DNA of 64,000 nt, from the NCBI GenBank assembly GCA_028293765.1, contig JAQGOG010000057.1, positions 102,342 to 166,341 of the forward strand, given 5' to 3'. Source of the DNA: Gammaproteobacteria bacterium (lineage in GTDB: Bacteria; Pseudomonadota; Gammaproteobacteria; Steroidobacterales; Steroidobacteraceae). Every line of letters starts with the position of its first letter. Positions within the stretch are counted from its first letter, which is position 1. Positions 55,105-64,000 of the stretch are shown here, in pieces. The notes below the pieces were generated by a model, which saw only the letters and a list, made by a program, of their open reading frames with translations, did no database searches and had not been told where the DNA came from. The translations under genes and the position numbers were made by a program.

Positions 55105-56499
55105 ATGACTCGCGCCGCCACCAAAATACGCTCTACCCCGAAATCCCGCTCCGCGCCGCAATCCGCGCCAGTGACTCCAAAACGCGCCCCAAAGGTCGGC
55201 TTCGTCAGCCTGGGCTGTCCCAAGGCGCTCGTCGACTCCGAGCGGATCCTCACGCACCTGCGCGCCGAAGGATACGAAGTCGCTCCGACTTACGAGGCCG
55301 CCGACGTAGTGATAGTGAACACCTGCGGCTTCATCGACGCGGCGGTCGATGAATCGCTCGATGCTATCGGAGAGGCTCTCGAGCAGAACGGACGCGTGAT
55401 CGTTACCGGGTGCCTCGGCGCGAAGCCGGAGCGCATTCTCGAACGCCATCCCCGCGTGCTCAAAGTGACCGGACCGCACGCCTACGAGGACGTATTGAAC
55501 GCCGTCCACGAACACTTGCCGCCGCAACACGATCCGTTCTTCGATCTGCTGCCGCCCCAGGGCGTGCGGCTGACTCCCCGCCACTACGCTTATCTCAAGA
55601 TCTCAGAAGGCTGCAACAACAAGTGCAGCTTCTGCATCATCCCGGACATGCGCGGGAAGCTCGCGAGCCGGCGCATCGACGACGTGTTGCGCGAAGGCGA
55701 GAGACTCGTGAAAGCCGGCGTCAAAGAGTTGCTCGTGATCTCGCAGGATACGAGCGCGTACGGAGCTGACATCCGCTACGCGACCGGCACCTGGCGCGAC
55801 GAGACCTATCAAACCCGCTTCATCGACCTTGCCCGCGGCCTGGGTTCGCTGGGTGCGTGGGTGCGGATGCACTACGTCTATCCGTATCCGCACGTCGATG
55901 AAGTCATTCCACTCATGGCGGAGCGACGCATCCTTCCTTATCTCGATATCCCGTTTCAGCATGGCAGCCCGAGCGTACTCAAGCGGATGCGCCGTCCGGC
56001 ACATTCAGTAAACACGCTCGCGCGCATCCGCGCCTGGCGGAAAGGATGTCCGGATCTCGTGATCCGCAGTACCTTCATTGTCGGATTTCCCGGCGAGACG
56101 GAGACTGAGTTCGAAGAGTTGCTCGCCTGGATGGACGAGGCACAGCTCGATCGCGTCGGCTGCTTCAAATACTCGCCCGTGGACGGCGCGACCGCCAACG
56201 CGCTTCCCGATCACGTTCCGCCGGCAGTACAGGAAGAGCGCCGGATACGTTTTATGGAACGCGCAGCGACCATAAGCGCCGGGCGGCTCGCCGCTCGCGT
56301 GGGTCGCCGCATGCGAGTGCTTGTGGATTCCGTTGAAAAGAACGTCGCGATCGCCCGGAGCGAAGCCGACGCGCCAGAGATCGATGGCGTGGTCCGGATC
56401 AAGGGCGGCAAGACTCTCAAGCCCGGCGATTGGGCGGACGTGGAGATTACTTCGGCCGACGCGTACGACCTGCACGCCCGGCAGGTTTCGGCGCCGTAA
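55105..56499 (+). CDS. rimO: Ribosomal protein S12 methylthiotransferase RimO
   Basis: Radical-SAM enzyme that methylthiolates Asp89 of ribosomal protein S12. The N-terminal UPF0004 domain binds a [4Fe-4S] cluster with Cys38, Cys74 and Cys103 ([26 protein letters not shown]). The radical-SAM cluster motif is CNNKCSFC (170-177), and the C-terminal TRAM domain is about 395-460. 464 residues, longer than usual (about 440) because of a basic Ser/Pro-rich N-terminal extension of about 25 residues. Confidence 0.96.
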
Positions 56500-57469: not shown

Positions 57470-58234
57470 TCAGCGGCAGGAACTGCTATTCAACAACGAA
57501 GTAACTGTTAGTCTCCATTGGCTGGCATCGTTGCCGTTAAAGAGGCTTCCATCGATATCAGCCGCATGCAGGACATTGCCAGAATAAATCACGATCCTGT
57601 TGAATGCGGAATCAACCGAGTGCGTCCGTTCAAATAAAGCATTGCTGCCGTTTGTATATTCTTGCGCGGGCGGGCCAAGATTCTTCATGTTGCGATTCAG
57701 GGAAGTTTTGTAATTGTTTTCATTAGCGTCGTTTATCTTTTCATAGCCGGTCGTTCTATGCCGATAGAACGAAGTTCCGCAATGGGCGCGATCGAAAAGA
57801 TAAATGACGGCAGCGAATACTCCCGGATCGCTGGAATCGTAGTGCGGAATTCGTTGCAGAGGCAGTAAATTCGCGCGGCTTTTGTTGACAATGGAAAAGA
57901 AGCTGACGTCATCGTATATATGGCAGCTTTCTTCCAACACGCCTGTACGGTGAAGCGTCCGGGTGAGCCATGCGTGCAAGGGCTGTGAGAATTCTGCTGG
58001 CACTCGAGCGCGTACACCGGGATATAGATTGCCGTCGTCTGCGCCGAATTCAAGACCGAGTCCGAATTCAGCCAACCGCTGTGGGCGCAGGAGCACGTTA
58101 TCCGCCACGGTCACTGCGATAGGGCACTCTCCAACACGAGCCGAGCTGACACTCGCGTTCGGATTGAACGCGAACATGCCTTCATCGTGTTCGCTGCCGC
58201 TCATGAATTCAGTATTCCAGACAGCAACTCTCAT
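57470..58234 (-). CDS. DUF6445-like protein with a 2-oxoglutarate/iron-oxygenase residue pattern
   Basis: 254 residues. I see HxD (His131, Asp133 in RIPHYDSSDPG), a later His (His223 in NVLHAADID) and Arg241 (QWRLTV), the order and spacing expected of non-haem Fe(II)/2-oxoglutarate oxygenases. GTSFYRHRTTGYE between them is also typical of this family. Proteins of this kind are often found with TonB receptors and halogenases. Enzymatic activity is inferred. The start overlaps the SapC stop by 4 bases. The region is lower in GC than most of the window. Confidence 0.75.
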   Translation of the reverse strand: MRVAVWNTEFMSGSEHDEGMFAFNPNASVSSARVGECPIAVTVADNVLLRPQRLAEFGLGLEFGADDGNLYPGVRARVPAEFSQPLHAWLTRTLHRTGVLEESCHIYDDVSFFSIVNKSRANLLPLQRIPHYDSSDPGVFAAVIYLFDRAHCGTSFYRHRTTGYEKINDANENNYKTSLNRNMKNLGPPAQEYTNGSNALFERTHSVDSAFNRIVIYSGNVLHAADIDGSLFNGNDASQWRLTVTSLLNSSSCR

Positions 58235-58974
58235 TTCTCATTGTTGCGCCAGGCGCGATTGAGCGATTCCCTCTCATTCCTGAGACGGATGAGGTTGTAT
58301 ATCTGACCGGTGGAAATAATTACAGAATAAACCAAATCCATGAGCCCTTCATCCCATAACATTCCAACCTTGTCCTTGTCGAGGGATCTGAAGCGATTTT
58401 CATCTATGCTATACAACCCCTCGACATACAACGATTTTCCATCTTCAAGCACAATATCCAGCACAATCGGACTGAGAAGATCCAGAGATAAAACCGTATC
58501 GATGAGGCTACTGGTCCGTTTTTGACCGTCAACCAGCTCACCAACGATAGCTAATATTTCTCTTAAATATTGTGAATCGCTCCCGTCGGCGTCAACTATG
58601 GATTTTTGACCAGCAGCGGTGAGGCACGGACTTTCAATATCTATGCACAGAACATTGTCGTTCGCGCCGCTCGCAGGATCGGCCGTTCCGACAAAGAATG
58701 GCCGACGCCGTATGTTCAACGGAAGATAGGCAACATCCATTTTCGTTCCGGACCAGAACAGGTTTTCTTCTGGTTCCAGGCCATTCAGAACAAAACAGGC
58801 GAAGCGGCCCGTCTCGGGGTTTTTTGCGAAGACGAGCGGATATTGCGTCGCCGCTTTGCGAAATTCGCTCGCCACGACGGGTATCAGATGCTGCCTGGCG
58901 GCGGACGCCTCGGCCAGGGCGGGATTTATCTTCAGTCCGGAATGTTCCGCGCGCGATAGCTCGACCAGGTGCAT
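58231..58974 (-). CDS. SapC-family protein
   Basis: 247 residues of the SapC type (PF07277 by memory): HLVELSRAEHSGLKINPALA, HLIPVVASEFRKAATQYPLV, VYEL-like segments are absent but FFVGTADPASGANDNVLCID and LLSPIVLDIVLEDGKSLYVE match. The name comes from S-layer studies, but homologues in TonB-receptor loci are of unknown function. The ATG at 58974 follows AGAGGA by 9 bases. Between the halogenase (22 bases upstream) and the DUF6445-like gene. Confidence 0.82.
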   Translation of the reverse strand: MHLVELSRAEHSGLKINPALAEASAARQHLIPVVASEFRKAATQYPLVFAKNPETGRFACFVLNGLEPEENLFWSGTKMDVAYLPLNIRRRPFFVGTADPASGANDNVLCIDIESPCLTAAGQKSIVDADGSDSQYLREILAIVGELVDGQKRTSSLIDTVLSLDLLSPIVLDIVLEDGKSLYVEGLYSIDENRFRSLDKDKVGMLWDEGLMDLVYSVIISTGQIYNLIRLRNERESLNRAWRNNEK

Positions 58975-58996
58975 GTCAATAAATCCTCTGAATGTT

Positions 58997-60550
58997 TTAG
59001 ATCCTTTGCAAGCCAAACTCTCTTATCTTGCTGATGAGATGGCGATTATTCGGCAGCGTTTTCGTCCATTTGGCCTTCAGGCTCTCATTGCGCGCAAACG
59101 CCTGCTCGACGGCGCGCGCATGACGATTCGGCTCCCGCTCCGACGTATCCATTCTGAAGCCCATGCCAAACAGGACATATTGATAACTCGCGGCGGGAAA
59201 CATTTCGTTGTTGCTCGTAAAATCCTGATCGCCGGGCGCTCGGTAGCGCCAGAGCTCGATCTGCTCTTTCAGGCTGTCAGGAATGCTCGCGGGAGCGCGG
59301 TTATCGATCCAGAACCGCGAGTCCTCGCGCTTGCTGAGGATATAGTGAAGCTTGAGAAAATCGATGATCCGATCCCAGCGATATTGCGTCGTCTCGTTGA
59401 AACGTTTAGCGATAATGTCCATCGTCTCGCGCGTGGCCGGCATCATTGCGCCGATCATTTCTGCAGAAAGCTCGATCAGCACCAGCGCGGACGCCTCGAG
59501 CGGCTCCAGGAAGCCGCCAGCGAGACCGACGGCCACACAATTGCCCTGCCAGAATGTCCGGCGGTGCCCGGCATGGATCTTGATTTCCCTGGGTTGCAGC
59601 GCTCGGTGTTTCTCGCCGACATACGCTTGCAGTTCGTCGAGCGCGGCATCGGCGGTAGTATGACTACTCGAAAATACATAGCCCACGCCCCGGCGGCTCT
59701 GTAGCCCGATGTCCCAGATCCAACCGTGTTTCTGCGCGGTCGATACCGTATGCGGAACGATATCGCTGTCCTCGGCGTCGTAGGGCACTTGTACGGCCAA
59801 GGCGCGATCGATGAACAGCACGTCGCTGCAATCGACGAAGGGGACACCCATCGTTTCGCCCAGCAGCAGCGACCTGAACCCAGAGCAGTCGATGAAGAGG
59901 TCGCCATCGAGTTGGCCCGACTTGCTCGTCTCCAGATAGGCGATGTCACCCGTCTCGCTTCTGATCACCCTTGTCACGTCGTCTACGACATGATCGACGC
60001 CGAGCCGGTTGACGCAATGATCGCGAATGAACGAAACGAAGCGCCCGGCGTCCAGATGATAGGCGTAGTTGGCGATCCCGGCATATTCGGGAGAGGTGAT
60101 GAGCTTAGGCGCGAGTCCGAGCTCGCATAGTGCTTCCTGGTAACTGACCGCATTGGAGAAGGAAGGAGCGCCCTGGCGCTGTTCCGAATATTCCATCCAG
60201 GCCGATGCCAGATCCAGACTCGGAAAACCTTCGGGCAGCACCAGTGGATGATAATAGAAGTCCGCTGGGTCGCCGGTTACCCAGCGCGCAAACTTGGCCC
60301 CTTGCTTGAATGAGGTATTGCATTCGCGGAAAAAATCGGTTTCCGAAATGCCCATTCTTTTCAGTGTCGTACGCATCGTCGGCCAGGTACCTTCGCCGAC
60401 GCCTATCGTGCCGATCGTATCGCTCTCGATCAGCTTGATGCGGATGCCGTGCCCGTCTTCCGAGCGGTGGCGCGCGGCGATGATCCCGGCTGTGAGCCAT
60501 CCTGCGGTGCCGCCGCCCACGATGCATATCGATCGAATCACATGCGCCAT
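58997..60550 (-). CDS. Flavin-dependent (tryptophan-type) halogenase
   Basis: 517 residues. FAD motif GGGTAGWLTAG (12-22), the conserved Lys82 in CNTSFKQGAKF, and the Glu of FLEPLEAS (Glu352), where PrnA has its catalytic Glu. The canonical WxWxIP reads WIWDIG (277-282), a form I associate with the branch linked to TonB receptors. Expected chemistry is FADH2-dependent chlorination or bromination through HOX; substrate unknown and no flavin reductase is adjacent. The ATG at 60550 has GGGGA 9 bases upstream; a TTG at 60571 is an alternative. Confidence 0.9.
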   Translation of the reverse strand: MAHVIRSICIVGGGTAGWLTAGIIAARHRSEDGHGIRIKLIESDTIGTIGVGEGTWPTMRTTLKRMGISETDFFRECNTSFKQGAKFARWVTGDPADFYYHPLVLPEGFPSLDLASAWMEYSEQRQGAPSFSNAVSYQEALCELGLAPKLITSPEYAGIANYAYHLDAGRFVSFIRDHCVNRLGVDHVVDDVTRVIRSETGDIAYLETSKSGQLDGDLFIDCSGFRSLLLGETMGVPFVDCSDVLFIDRALAVQVPYDAEDSDIVPHTVSTAQKHGWIWDIGLQSRRGVGYVFSSSHTTADAALDELQAYVGEKHRALQPREIKIHAGHRRTFWQGNCVAVGLAGGFLEPLEASALVLIELSAEMIGAMMPATRETMDIIAKRFNETTQYRWDRIIDFLKLHYILSKREDSRFWIDNRAPASIPDSLKEQIELWRYRAPGDQDFTSNNEMFPAASYQYVLFGMGFRMDTSEREPNRHARAVEQAFARNESLKAKWTKTLPNNRHLISKIREFGLQRI

Positions 60551-60656
60551 AGCCAATTTCCCCGCGGACAATTCGTTGCCAGCCTCGATTCGTCAATCTT
60601 AGGTAGCGGCCCGACGCGGAGATCGTAGCGCCAATAGCGCGGCAAGGAGAATCGAA

Positions 60657-60688
60657 TTGCCGGGGACAATGACTTGCGTCCCCGGCAA
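60657..60688 (-). terminator. Hairpin between the TonB receptor and halogenase genes
   Basis: Perfect 11-bp stem TTGCCGGGGAC / GTCCCCGGCAA with a 10-base loop, just after the receptor stop and 107 bases before the halogenase start. Could terminate or attenuate read-through so the receptor is made in excess, or stabilise the receptor mRNA. Confidence 0.6.
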
Positions 60689-60701
60689 CCCACGCAGCAG
60701 T

Positions 60702-63587
60702 TCAGAAGCCGGCGCGAAAACCCAACTTGATTCTAAGCCCGCTATCCTCGGCATAGAGAAACTGGTTCTGATAATAGGCGTATTTCAGTACCGGGGTATT
60801 CGTCAGGTTGGCGCCTTCGGCGAAGACCGCGAAATTTTTGCTGATGTGATAAGTCGCGCTCGCATCCAGCTGGTAACGCGACCGGACCTGGGTCACCGCC
60901 TGTCCGGCGCCGTTGAGCGGCGGCGGCGAGAGGTACTGCAGGAAGGTATCGCGCCAGTTTACCGCCGCCCGAGCCTCAAACGAGTGCTTATCGTAGAACA
61001 CCACGGCGTTGGCCGAGTTGGATAGGCCGGTAAGCGCGAACTTGTTGCTGAGATCGGCCGGGTTCAGCTTTTTGTCGCTGGTCGCCAGCGTACCGTTGAG
61101 TTGGACACCAAAGCCGGTCTCTCCAAACGAATGCTGAATCGCGGCTTCCTCCCCGGTTACGACCGCACTTGGCCCATTCTGGGGAGCCGTAACGGTGAAT
61201 TGCGCCGGCAGTCCCGTGCCAGGATCGATCAGCGGCGCCTTGGAGGCATTGTTGACCGGCCCGGTTGTTTGATTCAAGACAATGAAATTACTGACGTTTT
61301 TGTAGAAAAAGCCGAGTGAGACGTAGTTTGATTGGCCGTAGTAATATTCCAACGAGAGATCCAGATTGTTGGATCTGAAAGGCTTCAGGTCAGGATTTCC
61401 GCTGGCAGCGGCGAAATTTCCCGGCCGCAACGTCACCAGAGTGGTCACCGGGGAAAGCTGCTCGAGCGTCGGACGCGTCATCGTCTCCGAAGCGGCAAAT
61501 CGCGCGATGAAAGCATCGGTCAAATCCCACCTGAACGACATCGTCGGCAGAATGTCCGTGTAGTGGGTCGAGCCCGAGACCGTGGTCGTACCAGAAGTTG
61601 ACACCCCATATTGCGTAGCGTCGTTGGCCAGCTTCGTCAGCGCAACGAACTGCGTGGCCAAGCCGCTGATGTCCGCTACCGTATTCTCGACGCGCACGCC
61701 GACCACGCTGGTGAAACGCTTTCCGGCAAGACTGCCGGCGAACTCCGCGTCCAAATAGCCGCCAAAGACTCGTTCGATGACGACCGAATTGTTGACTCTG
61801 GGCGGCGCGAAGGTGAACCCCGGGGTGGTTACGCCCTGTTCATTGGTGATTGCATTGAATAATTGCTGGCCGTTGAATGTGAGCCATTGCGTCGTCAGGC
61901 GATTCGAGCCACTTACGCCGGAGAGGAAATCGCTGCCGGCGTTGAACACGCCAATCGGAACACTCGAGGGCGCCGGATTATTGTAGCCGCAGGTCGCGCA
62001 GCCCGTCCCGCCATCGTTCGAATACAGCGACGTGTCCTTCTTGTCTCGCGAAAAGAAGCCGCCCCAGCGAAGATTGGCCAGGCCCTCGGTCGGGCTGTCG
62101 CCTTTGTAGGTGAAGTCGGCGTGCAGCTGACCCACCTTATCCTCGACACCGTAGCCTCGATAAAGCATGACATGTTCGAAAAGCGGATGCGTACCACCCG
62201 CCACACCGGCATTCGGGCCGCTTGCGGGAACGACAAAGCCGCTCGTGTAGGGCAGAATCGAACCGTCCGACTGATAGCGAATCGTCTGCCCGCTATAGCC
62301 GAGCAAGGCGAGTTCGCTCTCTGCGCCACCGTTCGGGTCTTCCTTGGCGCTGGAGTAACTGCCGTCGAGACTAAGGTTCACGCGATCCGATATGTTCCAG
62401 TTCGCGTTGAGACCGGAAGCGACCAGGTCCGTCTTCTTGTCGAATTTCTTGTCGTGGAAGTCGGATGCCATGCCGACCCCCTGCGTCAAATCGGTTGCGG
62501 TCCCATTGGCGTCGGTGACGACGTTACTCAGGTTGGATGGGGTAAACCAGTGCCCGAACGACCGCGCGTCGGTCGTGTTCGTGAACCTGGAATACAGCGT
62601 GTCGGACGTTAGCGTCAGGTTGTCGCTGGGCCTGTATTGCAGGACCAAGGTACCGCCAATACGCTCGCGATCCTCGAACGTCACCTTGTTGTCGAAATTC
62701 TGAGGAACGAACAGATTACCCTGCGGATTGCTCGCGGTTTTCGCCACCCCGGCGCCACCGTTGATCGCCGAAGCCGGAGTGCCGCCGTTGACGATCCAGC
62801 CATCGGTCTGCGCCTGATTGAGCCTGTCTTTGCGTCGTTGATAACTGCCCGAAAGCAGCGCGCCGAATTGCCCGTCGGCGAACGTGTCGCTGACGAGGAA
62901 CGAGGCCTCGGGCGCAGACTTGCTCGAATTTTTTTCGTAGTTCTCATCGACCGAACCGGAGAACTTGAAGCCGGGGTAATCGAAGGGTCGAGCCGTCTTG
63001 ATGTTGACAGTCGAACCGACCCCCCCGGACTGCAGGCGTGCCGTCGATGACTTATAAACCTCTACTCCGGAAACGAGTTCGGATGCGAGGGTGTCGAACG
63101 AGAAAGCTCGCCCGCTGGCCTGGCTGGGGTCGGTAGGTGTGGCGATTTGCCGGCCGTTGACCAATACCGTATTAAATTCCGGCCCGAATCCGCGAACCGT
63201 GATAAATGCGCCTTCCCCGCCCGAGCGGTCAATGGAAACGCCAGTGATGCGCTGCAGCGACTCCGCCAGATTCGTGTCGGGCAACTTGCCGATATCCTCA
63301 GGCGCGATCGCATCGACGATCCCCAGCGAATTACGTTTGATCGCGCGTGCGGTGGTTATGCTGGAGCGAATGCCACTGACAACGACTTCGGCCAGTGAGT
63401 CGCCGTTCTGCGCATCCGTTGTGGGCGTCTTGTTCTGCGCCGCGGCGGCTGATGGCTCAGAGTTTGCCGCACCGGTGCCATCCTGCGCCACCGCGCCGGT
63501 CGCTGCCATCATGGCCCAACAGGAAGCCGAACCATAGCCCAGCGCCGCCCTGATTGCCGCCCGGATCGCCGCCCTCGTGGTCGTCAT
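60702..63587 (-). CDS. TonB-dependent outer-membrane receptor
   Basis: 961 residues. A signal peptide ending AVA (about 1-34); TonB box-like LAEVVVSG; plug domain with EDIGKLPDTNLAESLQRITG, SIDRSGGEGAFITVRGFGPE and NTVLVNGRQIATP, the Xanthomonas/Caulobacter-type receptor pattern; a 22-strand type barrel ending LRIKLGFRAGF with a terminal Phe. The ATG at 63587 has a run of G 7 bases upstream and is preferred over the ATG at 63593. It probably imports a scarce large substrate. Divergent from the lacI-type gene. Confidence 0.93.
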   Translation of the reverse strand: MTTTRAAIRAAIRAALGYGSASCWAMMAATGAVAQDGTGAANSEPSAAAAQNKTPTTDAQNGDSLAEVVVSGIRSSITTARAIKRNSLGIVDAIAPEDIGKLPDTNLAESLQRITGVSIDRSGGEGAFITVRGFGPEFNTVLVNGRQIATPTDPSQASGRAFSFDTLASELVSGVEVYKSSTARLQSGGVGSTVNIKTARPFDYPGFKFSGSVDENYEKNSSKSAPEASFLVSDTFADGQFGALLSGSYQRRKDRLNQAQTDGWIVNGGTPASAINGGAGVAKTASNPQGNLFVPQNFDNKVTFEDRERIGGTLVLQYRPSDNLTLTSDTLYSRFTNTTDARSFGHWFTPSNLSNVVTDANGTATDLTQGVGMASDFHDKKFDKKTDLVASGLNANWNISDRVNLSLDGSYSSAKEDPNGGAESELALLGYSGQTIRYQSDGSILPYTSGFVVPASGPNAGVAGGTHPLFEHVMLYRGYGVEDKVGQLHADFTYKGDSPTEGLANLRWGGFFSRDKKDTSLYSNDGGTGCATCGYNNPAPSSVPIGVFNAGSDFLSGVSGSNRLTTQWLTFNGQQLFNAITNEQGVTTPGFTFAPPRVNNSVVIERVFGGYLDAEFAGSLAGKRFTSVVGVRVENTVADISGLATQFVALTKLANDATQYGVSTSGTTTVSGSTHYTDILPTMSFRWDLTDAFIARFAASETMTRPTLEQLSPVTTLVTLRPGNFAAASGNPDLKPFRSNNLDLSLEYYYGQSNYVSLGFFYKNVSNFIVLNQTTGPVNNASKAPLIDPGTGLPAQFTVTAPQNGPSAVVTGEEAAIQHSFGETGFGVQLNGTLATSDKKLNPADLSNKFALTGLSNSANAVVFYDKHSFEARAAVNWRDTFLQYLSPPPLNGAGQAVTQVRSRYQLDASATYHISKNFAVFAEGANLTNTPVLKYAYYQNQFLYAEDSGLRIKLGFRAGF

Positions 63588-63885
63588 TGTCATTCCCCCC
63601 CCATGCAAGCTGCGCCTGACGGCGCGGCAATTGTACCGAAACGCGCACGACACAAACGAAGCACGGTCAGGACCGCGAACCGGACGAACGGGGGAAGTCT
63701 TTGAGCGTCACATCAGCGACGATTTCATAACGTCGCCGGCGCCGCTCGGCGGCCGTCCCTCTCCATCTTCGGTCGCCTAGGCAGGCCTGGCGGCTTCTGT
63801 GTGGGAATTGTTGCGGATCGGATTTAAGATAACAATCACAAATTTTTTCATTTTGCTACTCTCGGCGCTACAGAGGGAGGAAAGT
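63588..63885. promoter_or_regulatory. Divergent control region of receptor and LacI-type genes
   Basis: 298 bases between the two starts. The AT-rich part (63800-63860) should contain the regulator's promoter. ATTGTT (63807-63812) and AACAAT (63831-63836) form a weak 6-bp inverted repeat, not a convincing LacI operator. GAGGGAGGAAAG just before 63886 is the regulator's ribosome site. Confidence 0.5.
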
Positions 63886-64000
63886 ATGGCGAAGCGGACT
63901 ATCTCCAAACTGGAAGAACTCGCCTCATTGACGGGATTTTCCCTCGCGACAGTTTCTCGTGCGCTGAGCGATCATCCGTCGGTGAAAGAACAGACGAAGC
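63886..64000 (+). CDS. LacI-family transcriptional regulator, 5' part cut by the window edge
   Basis: Only 38 codons are visible. AKRTISKLEELASLTGFSLA followed by TVSRALSDHPSVKEQTK is the LacI headpiece helix-turn-helix and hinge start. A strong ribosome site (GGGAGG) precedes the ATG. LacI proteins usually sense sugars; divergent from the receptor-halogenase array, it probably controls it. Confidence 0.9.
   Translation, partial: MAKRTISKLEELASLTGFSLATVSRALSDHPSVKEQTK

Follow-up and report, generated by a model that had tools for sequence, protein, structure and literature searches.

A Trp-Phe pair in TonB-dependent receptors accompanies a halogenase-SapC-oxygenase cassette and is a candidate site of its action

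A stretch of 64,000 nucleotides from a Steroidobacteraceae genome (assembly GCA_028293765.1, contig JAQGOG010000057.1, positions 102,342 to 166,341 of the forward strand; hereafter the window) ends in an array of four leftward genes encoding a TonB-dependent receptor, a protein of the flavin-dependent halogenase family, a SapC family protein, and DUF6445, a predicted 2-oxoglutarate/Fe(II) oxygenase. We tentatively favor the reading that the enzymes of this conserved cassette modify the receptor encoded alongside them, and not an imported substrate. The evidence comes from the receptor itself, in which a Trp-Phe pair accompanies the halogenase and the residue after the pair varies with the type of oxygenase encoded nearby.

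Covariation of the receptor with its neighboring enzymes

When receptors with and without module neighbors were aligned, the column that best separated them was a Trp in a variable stretch. Numbered after the window receptor, W349-F350 is present in 93/93 receptors with a clade-A halogenase (the clade of the window protein) directly downstream, and in 3/49 receptors for which no module came into view up to 6 kb away, one of which (L124_19219) has cut context. The full set comprises 188 receptors, and the 93 form 69 clusters at 80% identity. When a halogenase of any kind within 6 kb is counted instead, 106/127 receptors that have one carry the pair, against 2/54 where none was seen; "within 6 kb" here means within the sequence available, and 4 of the 54 have less than 5 kb visible downstream. 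Short loci later taken at full length, and receptors in the "none" class with less than 1 kb visible downstream, were left out of these counts. All ten clade-A-linked receptors added after the pattern had been noticed carry Trp-Phe (L277 is identical to an earlier receptor, L293 is 88% identical, and the other eight stand at 46-72%). Trp-Phe is present in 0 of 14 later-added module-free receptors, 8 of which align a Trp followed by a different residue. The pair is fixed within a hypervariable stretch, and of the 59 columns with 97% conservation or more across the 93 receptors, those of Trp349 and Phe350 are retained least often (4/10 each) in near relatives lacking a halogenase; these ten relatives were hand-picked (identity 0.36-0.54) and six of them belonged to the discovery set. 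Judged from these alignments, the pair is a stable mark, unlike Trp alone, which we rejected since it is not significant on the tree and depends on the alignment (5/35 versus 20/49 module-free receptors). We also dropped a corresponding rule for clade-B receptors, where W occurs in 2/10 or 7/10 according to alignment and class definition.

The next residue follows the oxygenase. Among 83 receptors with a clade-A halogenase and sufficient context (9 short-locus receptors, and L267, whose contig ends inside SapC, were left out), residue 351 is i) Thr in 22/22 receptors with DUF6445; ii) Asn in 36/44 and Ser in 5/44 (41/44 together) of those with cupin_8; and iii) Asp or Glu in 16/17 of those with neither oxygenase. 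The information that residue 351 carries on oxygenase type is 1.38 bits, a value that 0 of 792 aligned columns reach; with L267 included it is 1.337 bits and 1 of 792 columns is higher (1.358), and when the set is thinned to 63 receptors below 80% identity it is 1.35 bits, reached by 0 of 786 columns. Cupin_8 proteins include asparaginyl hydroxylases, which fits Asn; we know of no precedent for a modified Thr. A firm rule linking cupin to Asn was abandoned on the tree (5 pairs, 3 for and 1 against). Two loci with otherwise cupin-type loops but no cupin_8 seen differ at residue 351, which is Asp in L172 and Asn in L143.

The window receptor scores 631.7 bits against TIGR01782 (cut-off 310), and its AlphaFold model, with a predicted local distance difference test (pLDDT) score of 82.1, has TonB receptors as its best solved matches. 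In the model Trp349 ends predicted strand 326-349, in a block with pLDDT 91. Since the start of this strand follows a two-residue turn, and short turns alternate with long loops, Trp349 should face outward at loop 3; W349-F350 is accordingly modeled, and predicted, to lie on extracellular loop 3.

Two further receptors touch on this site. A receptor in G278, a genome of the same genus, has Tyr-Phe there (L231) and no halogenase within the sequence available; a contig end in the window genome (C178:14613-15893) holds a fragment that matches it at 91% identity across 427 residues, the site falling outside the part seen. A Catenovulum agarase locus (L184), which stands outside the counts, combines a clade-A motif with a Trp-Phe-Asp receptor.

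The gene array and its conservation

The features of the array are as follows.

60702..63593, minus strand: TonB-dependent receptor of the TIGR01782 (Xanth-Caul) class, 963 residues from MTMTTT; the longest open reading frame starts at GTG 63653
62541..62549, minus strand: receptor codons W349-F350-T351 (loop sequence SFGHWFTPSN), where predicted strand 326-349 reaches its outer end; proposed site of modification
60653..60692, minus strand: 16-pair terminator-like hairpin between receptor and halogenase, its core stem also present in the genus-mate G278
58997..60550, minus strand: flavin-dependent halogenase family protein of clade A (PF04820), 517 residues, with GVGEGTW, WIWDIGL, and EPLEAS
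58231..58974, minus strand: SapC family protein (PF07277), the sole match in the genome
57470..58234, minus strand: DUF6445 (PF20043), predicted 2-oxoglutarate/Fe(II) oxygenase, with H131-x-D133, H223, and R241; the sole match in the genome
63886..64000, plus strand: LacI-family headpiece (PF00356), 38 codons, truncated by the contig end

Open reading frames and a Pfam scan agree with the earlier note on the four leftward genes, on the 22-base gap from halogenase to SapC and the 4-base overlap between SapC and DUF6445, and on the divergent LacI headpiece; the receptor is separated from the halogenase by 151 bases. Pfam scores are well above their cut-offs for Plug (65.8 bits), the TonB barrel (86.5), Trp_halogenase (419.9; cut-off 21), SapC (183.8; cut-off 28.9), and DUF6445 (204.9), placing the halogenase-like and SapC proteins in their families; the LacI headpiece scores 29 bits against a cut-off of 27. 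SapC and DUF6445 each have one match in the 6.6-Mb assembly, both in this array, and PF04820 matches at several places. The window ends where the contig does (166341 bases), so that the remainder of the LacI gene, including the region of the sugar-binding domain, lies beyond the readable sequence. To the left the array adjoins an N-acetyltransferase gene (PF00797). A RimO-like open reading frame, recognized by eye, flanks the four genes at 55105-56499 (plus strand), and in a Sphingomonadales locus another (L104:1-465, plus strand) is found a few kb away from the corresponding genes; this may be chance.

Because of the hairpin that precedes the halogenase gene, it cannot be taken for granted that the four genes share a single even transcript. 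Its core stem is kept in G278 with a changed loop, and it suggests that more receptor than enzyme may be made.

We scanned the halogenase alignment against species genomes and kept the best 80 of at least 588 confirmed places, in Gamma- and Alphaproteobacteria. The comparison of neighborhoods across Proteobacteria that the earlier note had proposed finds this one conserved: a receptor lies directly upstream of this halogenase clade in 74/80 loci, SapC lies directly downstream in 49/80, and in 27/80 SapC is encoded divergently and the locus contains a cupin_8 gene. The run halogenase-SapC-DUF6445 occurs in 22/80 loci (hereafter quartet loci), in one of which (L118) no upstream receptor was recognized. 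Because the arrangement recurs in related loci, the array goes beyond chance. G278 has the four genes at 81-92% identity and in unchanged order, though in different surroundings; since G278 alone among 36 other genomes of the genus, many of them incomplete, has a DUF6445 match, the cassette looks patchy.

Seen from the receptor class, 38/46 halogenases in eight genomes have a TIGR01782 receptor no more than 8 kb away, and 20/62 TIGR01782 receptors have a halogenase directly downstream; these counts leave out the two weakest TIGR01782 rows, together with 14 weak receptor rows and three weak PF04820 pieces of the window genome. Three of ten genomes had no such receptor (TIGR01782, E 1e-60), and the same three had no PF04820 match (E 1e-20). 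The genome of Caulobacter vibrioides gave matches to TIGR01782, SapC, and PF04820.

The halogenase-family protein, SapC, and DUF6445

The halogenase-family protein has the flavin adenine dinucleotide-binding start GGGTAGW at residues 12-18, and its K82 and E352 align with the Lys of TYK and the Glu of EPLES in 6nsd and 5lv9, positions which we take to be catalytic. The hallmark of flavin-dependent halogenases is WxWxIP; the window protein instead reads WIWDIGL, and other clade-A members have WDIG, WDIA, WDVG, or WDIC, so we call it only a halogenase-family protein and regard its activity as predicted. Nor does it have the free-tryptophan site: YYHGLPPYS of 6nsd aligns with the clade-A FPAASYQY region, where the Trp4 motif, described in section 7 of PMC8269204 as the substrate motif of free-tryptophan halogenases, would lie. 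In a tree of 146 proteins of the halogenase family, clade A (GVGEGTW, WxWDIG-like, EPLE[AS]) stands apart from clade B (GVGEATIP-like, WxWRIP-like, EPLEST), a smaller clade C, and a few motif-less members. The nearest solved relatives of clade A are 2PYX, which presumably comes from Shewanella, 9LTB, and 9LU2 (539.5, 463.5, and 443.0 bits). Proteins of the family that look enzymatically dead, without GxGE, WxWxI, or EPLE, occur in the window genome (L010:7975-9534, on C150) and at L261:4911-6419 and L263:3644-5239; each adjoins intact paralogs and is perhaps a second subunit.

A search of SapC against solved structures gave two weak hits (5.5e-4, to the flagellin hook IN motif, and 0.96) that we take as chance. 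SapC genes without a halogenase (40 loci) often stand beside other exported proteins: 31 of the 40 have a same-strand neighbor at most 300 bases upstream, which in 9/31 is an open reading frame of more than 900 residues, and Pfam families in these 31 neighbors include FecR (6), ShlB/FhaC-type exporters (4), PPIC isomerase domains (3), Omp85 (2), and malic enzyme (2). Such neighbors would fit a role for SapC as a helper of surface proteins. Stand-alone SapC lies directly downstream of open reading frames of 934 to more than 3,200 residues at L057, L059, L060, L065, L067, L068, L071, L077, and L078; these look secreted or surface-type, and several are open at the locus edge.

DUF6445 gave no match to solved structures by sequence, but its model has a double-stranded beta-helix fold, and the HxD...H iron triad (H131, D133, H223) and the 2-oxoglutarate-binding R241 are invariant in 28/28 aligned sequences. 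The guess that the fourth gene encodes an oxygenase is thereby supported. The best-matching folds include many protein hydroxylases, and small-molecule 2-oxoglutarate enzymes match equally well; DUF6445 is predicted to be an oxygenase of the 2-oxoglutarate/Fe(II) type, near in fold to protein hydroxylases.

Regulators and glycan setting

The LacI headpiece gene is probably a local regulator outside the conserved cassette. The earlier note had counted it in the unit, a view that we drop: LacI-type open reading frames of at least 80 residues occur in 10/155 loci scanned, which makes the link a local trait, and none was found near the corresponding genes in the part of G278 covered. The anti-sigma factor FecR, in comparison, is linked to 16/22 quartets, lies elsewhere in the locus in 4, and was not seen in 2. 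Among three quartet receptors scanned (from loci L102-L164), one (L106) has an STN signaling domain; the window receptor, with LacI nearby, gave no STN match.

The carbohydrate setting suggested by the LacI gene does hold in relatives, whose loci carry annotated glycan enzyme sets. Plasmid loci with a clade-A halogenase carry enzyme sets for xylan, agar, galactosides, and GH95-type (fucoside-type) glycans, the glycans being read from enzyme names; some further annotated stretches held DUF6445 or other halogenase types and not clade A. These differences speak against one specific glycan as the common denominator: the receptor class is constant and the glycan is variable. Among 129 flanking open reading frames of the 22 quartet loci (at least 230 residues, FecI/FecR clusters set aside), sugar porters and TonB receptors are the most frequent of the 25 commonest families listed; carbohydrate enzymes may occur among the rarer ones.

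Proposed mechanism and alternatives

We propose that the halogenase-family protein would act on Trp349 of the receptor Trp-Phe pair, and the oxygenase at or beside residue 351. Both would do so in the cytoplasm, before export, on the unfolded receptor, which SapC may present, guard, or escort; no signal peptides are visible by eye in the enzymes. The chemistry would be halogenation of the indole, or possibly hydroxylation, given that the clade lacks the usual IP of WxWxIP, and the altered aromatic patch might tune ligand capture.

Several points weigh against receptor modification. The covariation is strong in count but reflects few independent evolutionary events: on the tree, clade-A halogenase versus Trp-Phe gives 6 pairs (4.6 for, 0 against, p ~0.06) and any halogenase versus Trp-Phe gives 12 pairs (3.9 for, 0 against), with eight and seven rows of cut context, respectively, left out, and the association of DUF6445 with Thr is a single event. 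Several halogenase-less relatives keep the Trp. Finally, a shared ligand could produce covariation of receptor and enzymes; this, together with the small number of events, is why our preference stays a guarded one.

If shared descent were the whole explanation, the cassette and a receptor clade would simply travel together, Trp-Phe and residue 351 would be marks of that clade (for example ligand contacts), and the enzymes would act on another molecule or surface protein. The scarcity of independent changes speaks for this, as do the 53% mutual identity of receptors with this halogenase (25 sampled rows) versus 28% to others, and the other columns that inform on oxygenase type at up to 1.35-1.36 bits; but descent alone accounts poorly for a pair that is fixed in a hypervariable stretch and is, in receptors lacking the halogenase, kept less often than the rest of the 59 fixed columns, and for a residue 351 that outranks, or nearly outranks, every aligned column, and we consider it somewhat unlikely. 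We judge unlikely, too, the import route of the earlier note, taken here to mean that an aromatic compound or aromatic-bearing glycoside would be taken up, then halogenated and hydroxylated in the cytoplasm, with loop and enzymes both following the ligand. TonB receptors do import, LacI stands beside the window copy, a sugar-porter gene of the major facilitator superfamily is present in 9/22 quartet loci, the covarying position, on a predicted outer loop, is consistent with ligand contact, and relatives include xylan-type loci, which could release feruloyl groups. Yet members of this halogenase clade also adjoin genes for agarase, galactosidase, and GH95 enzymes, and glycans of these types bear no aromatic ring; with porters in only those 9 loci, no constant inner-membrane transporter neighbor was seen; and Trp-Phe is kept across the differing glycan settings. 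Import followed by halogenation also explains poorly why the halogenase keeps to a single receptor class when the glycan genes change, and why the receptor tripeptide tracks which enzymes are present.

It is also conceivable, but quite improbable, that the receptor is the target and the halogenase-like protein hydroxylates or otherwise oxidizes the Trp. Clade A has WxWDIG-like instead of WxWxIP, and mostly EPLEA[ST] instead of EPLEST, residues that lie near the halide and flavin sites in known enzymes; against this, clade A retains the Lys and Glu at the catalytic positions, and the solved members were deposited as tryptophan halogenases, if in name only.

We wish to stress what halogenation of the receptor would imply. 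With still greater reserve, we suggest that Proteobacteria may carry receptor-tailoring cassettes in which a flavin halogenase and a 2-oxoglutarate or cupin_8 oxygenase, with SapC as escort, produce a halogenated Trp and a hydroxylated neighbor in W-F-(T/N/D) at the receptor mouth; in that case TonB receptors would for the first time be seen to undergo post-translational tailoring by dedicated enzymes, and the orphan "tryptophan halogenases" found in marine and plant-associated bacteria would have their native role. The at least 588 genomic places noted above encode relatives of this halogenase, for which a concrete substrate is here proposed to the residue. If the proposal is true, carbohydrate degraders use dedicated enzymes to tune their nutrient receptors chemically, which is a new type of modification for outer-membrane proteins, and these enzymes could serve as site-specific Trp-tagging tools; if it is false, the receptor loop and the oxygenase still coevolve by this rule, which points to the ligand.

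Comparison with known systems

In the open-access literature (subscription journals lay outside the search) we found neither a cassette of this make-up nor a receptor as halogenase substrate; no text joining a tryptophan halogenase with SapC, or a halogenase with TonB and SapC, or covering DUF6445; and none linking a flavin-dependent halogenase with TonB-dependent receptors and Xanthomonas. Of the proteins with solved structures, 2PYX, 9LTB, and 9LU2 resemble the window enzyme in being of the GVGEG / WxWDI / EPLEA type, and "tryptophan halogenase" is their depositors' name for them. OGFOD1/Tpa1, LH3, P4H, and PHD2, all 2-oxoglutarate protein hydroxylases, share with DUF6445 the fold and the iron- and 2-oxoglutarate-binding residues, at about 10-16% identity.

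The carbohydrate utilization (CUT) loci of Xanthomonas (sucrose, xylan, pectin, maltodextrin), as described in two papers (PMC1790865, PMC10714752), are like the window in having a TonB receptor with an adjoining regulator, of LacI type in one starch locus. A CUT locus places a degradative enzyme, an inner-membrane transporter, and a sugar regulator beside the receptor (PMC1790865); the window has the receptor and a LacI fragment, with the N-acetyltransferase gene on the left and the right flank beyond the contig end. Halogenase and SapC have 0 mentions in the main texts of these papers.

BrvH and Xcc4156 belong to the same enzyme family as the window protein, BrvH being of clade-B type by motif (ATIPTI) and the window enzyme of clade A. 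According to the papers, both act on indole and not on free Trp, their native substrates are unknown, and the authors propose larger substrates or a peptide, for which the enzymes are open enough; TonB has 0 mentions in either text (PMC5945002, PMC7336383). For such orphan halogenases the receptor Trp-Phe loop, on the alignments presented here, is a concrete candidate substrate. Peptide halogenases and sugar-locus TonB receptors both have separate precedents. MibH halogenates Trp inside a ribosomal peptide (PMC5945002), and so does a brominase of the ribosomally synthesized and post-translationally modified peptides (RiPPs; PMC10858898). MibH (5uao) matches the window halogenase at only 171 bits, and these Trp halogenases act on small precursor peptides, whereas the target proposed here is a 963-residue outer-membrane receptor.
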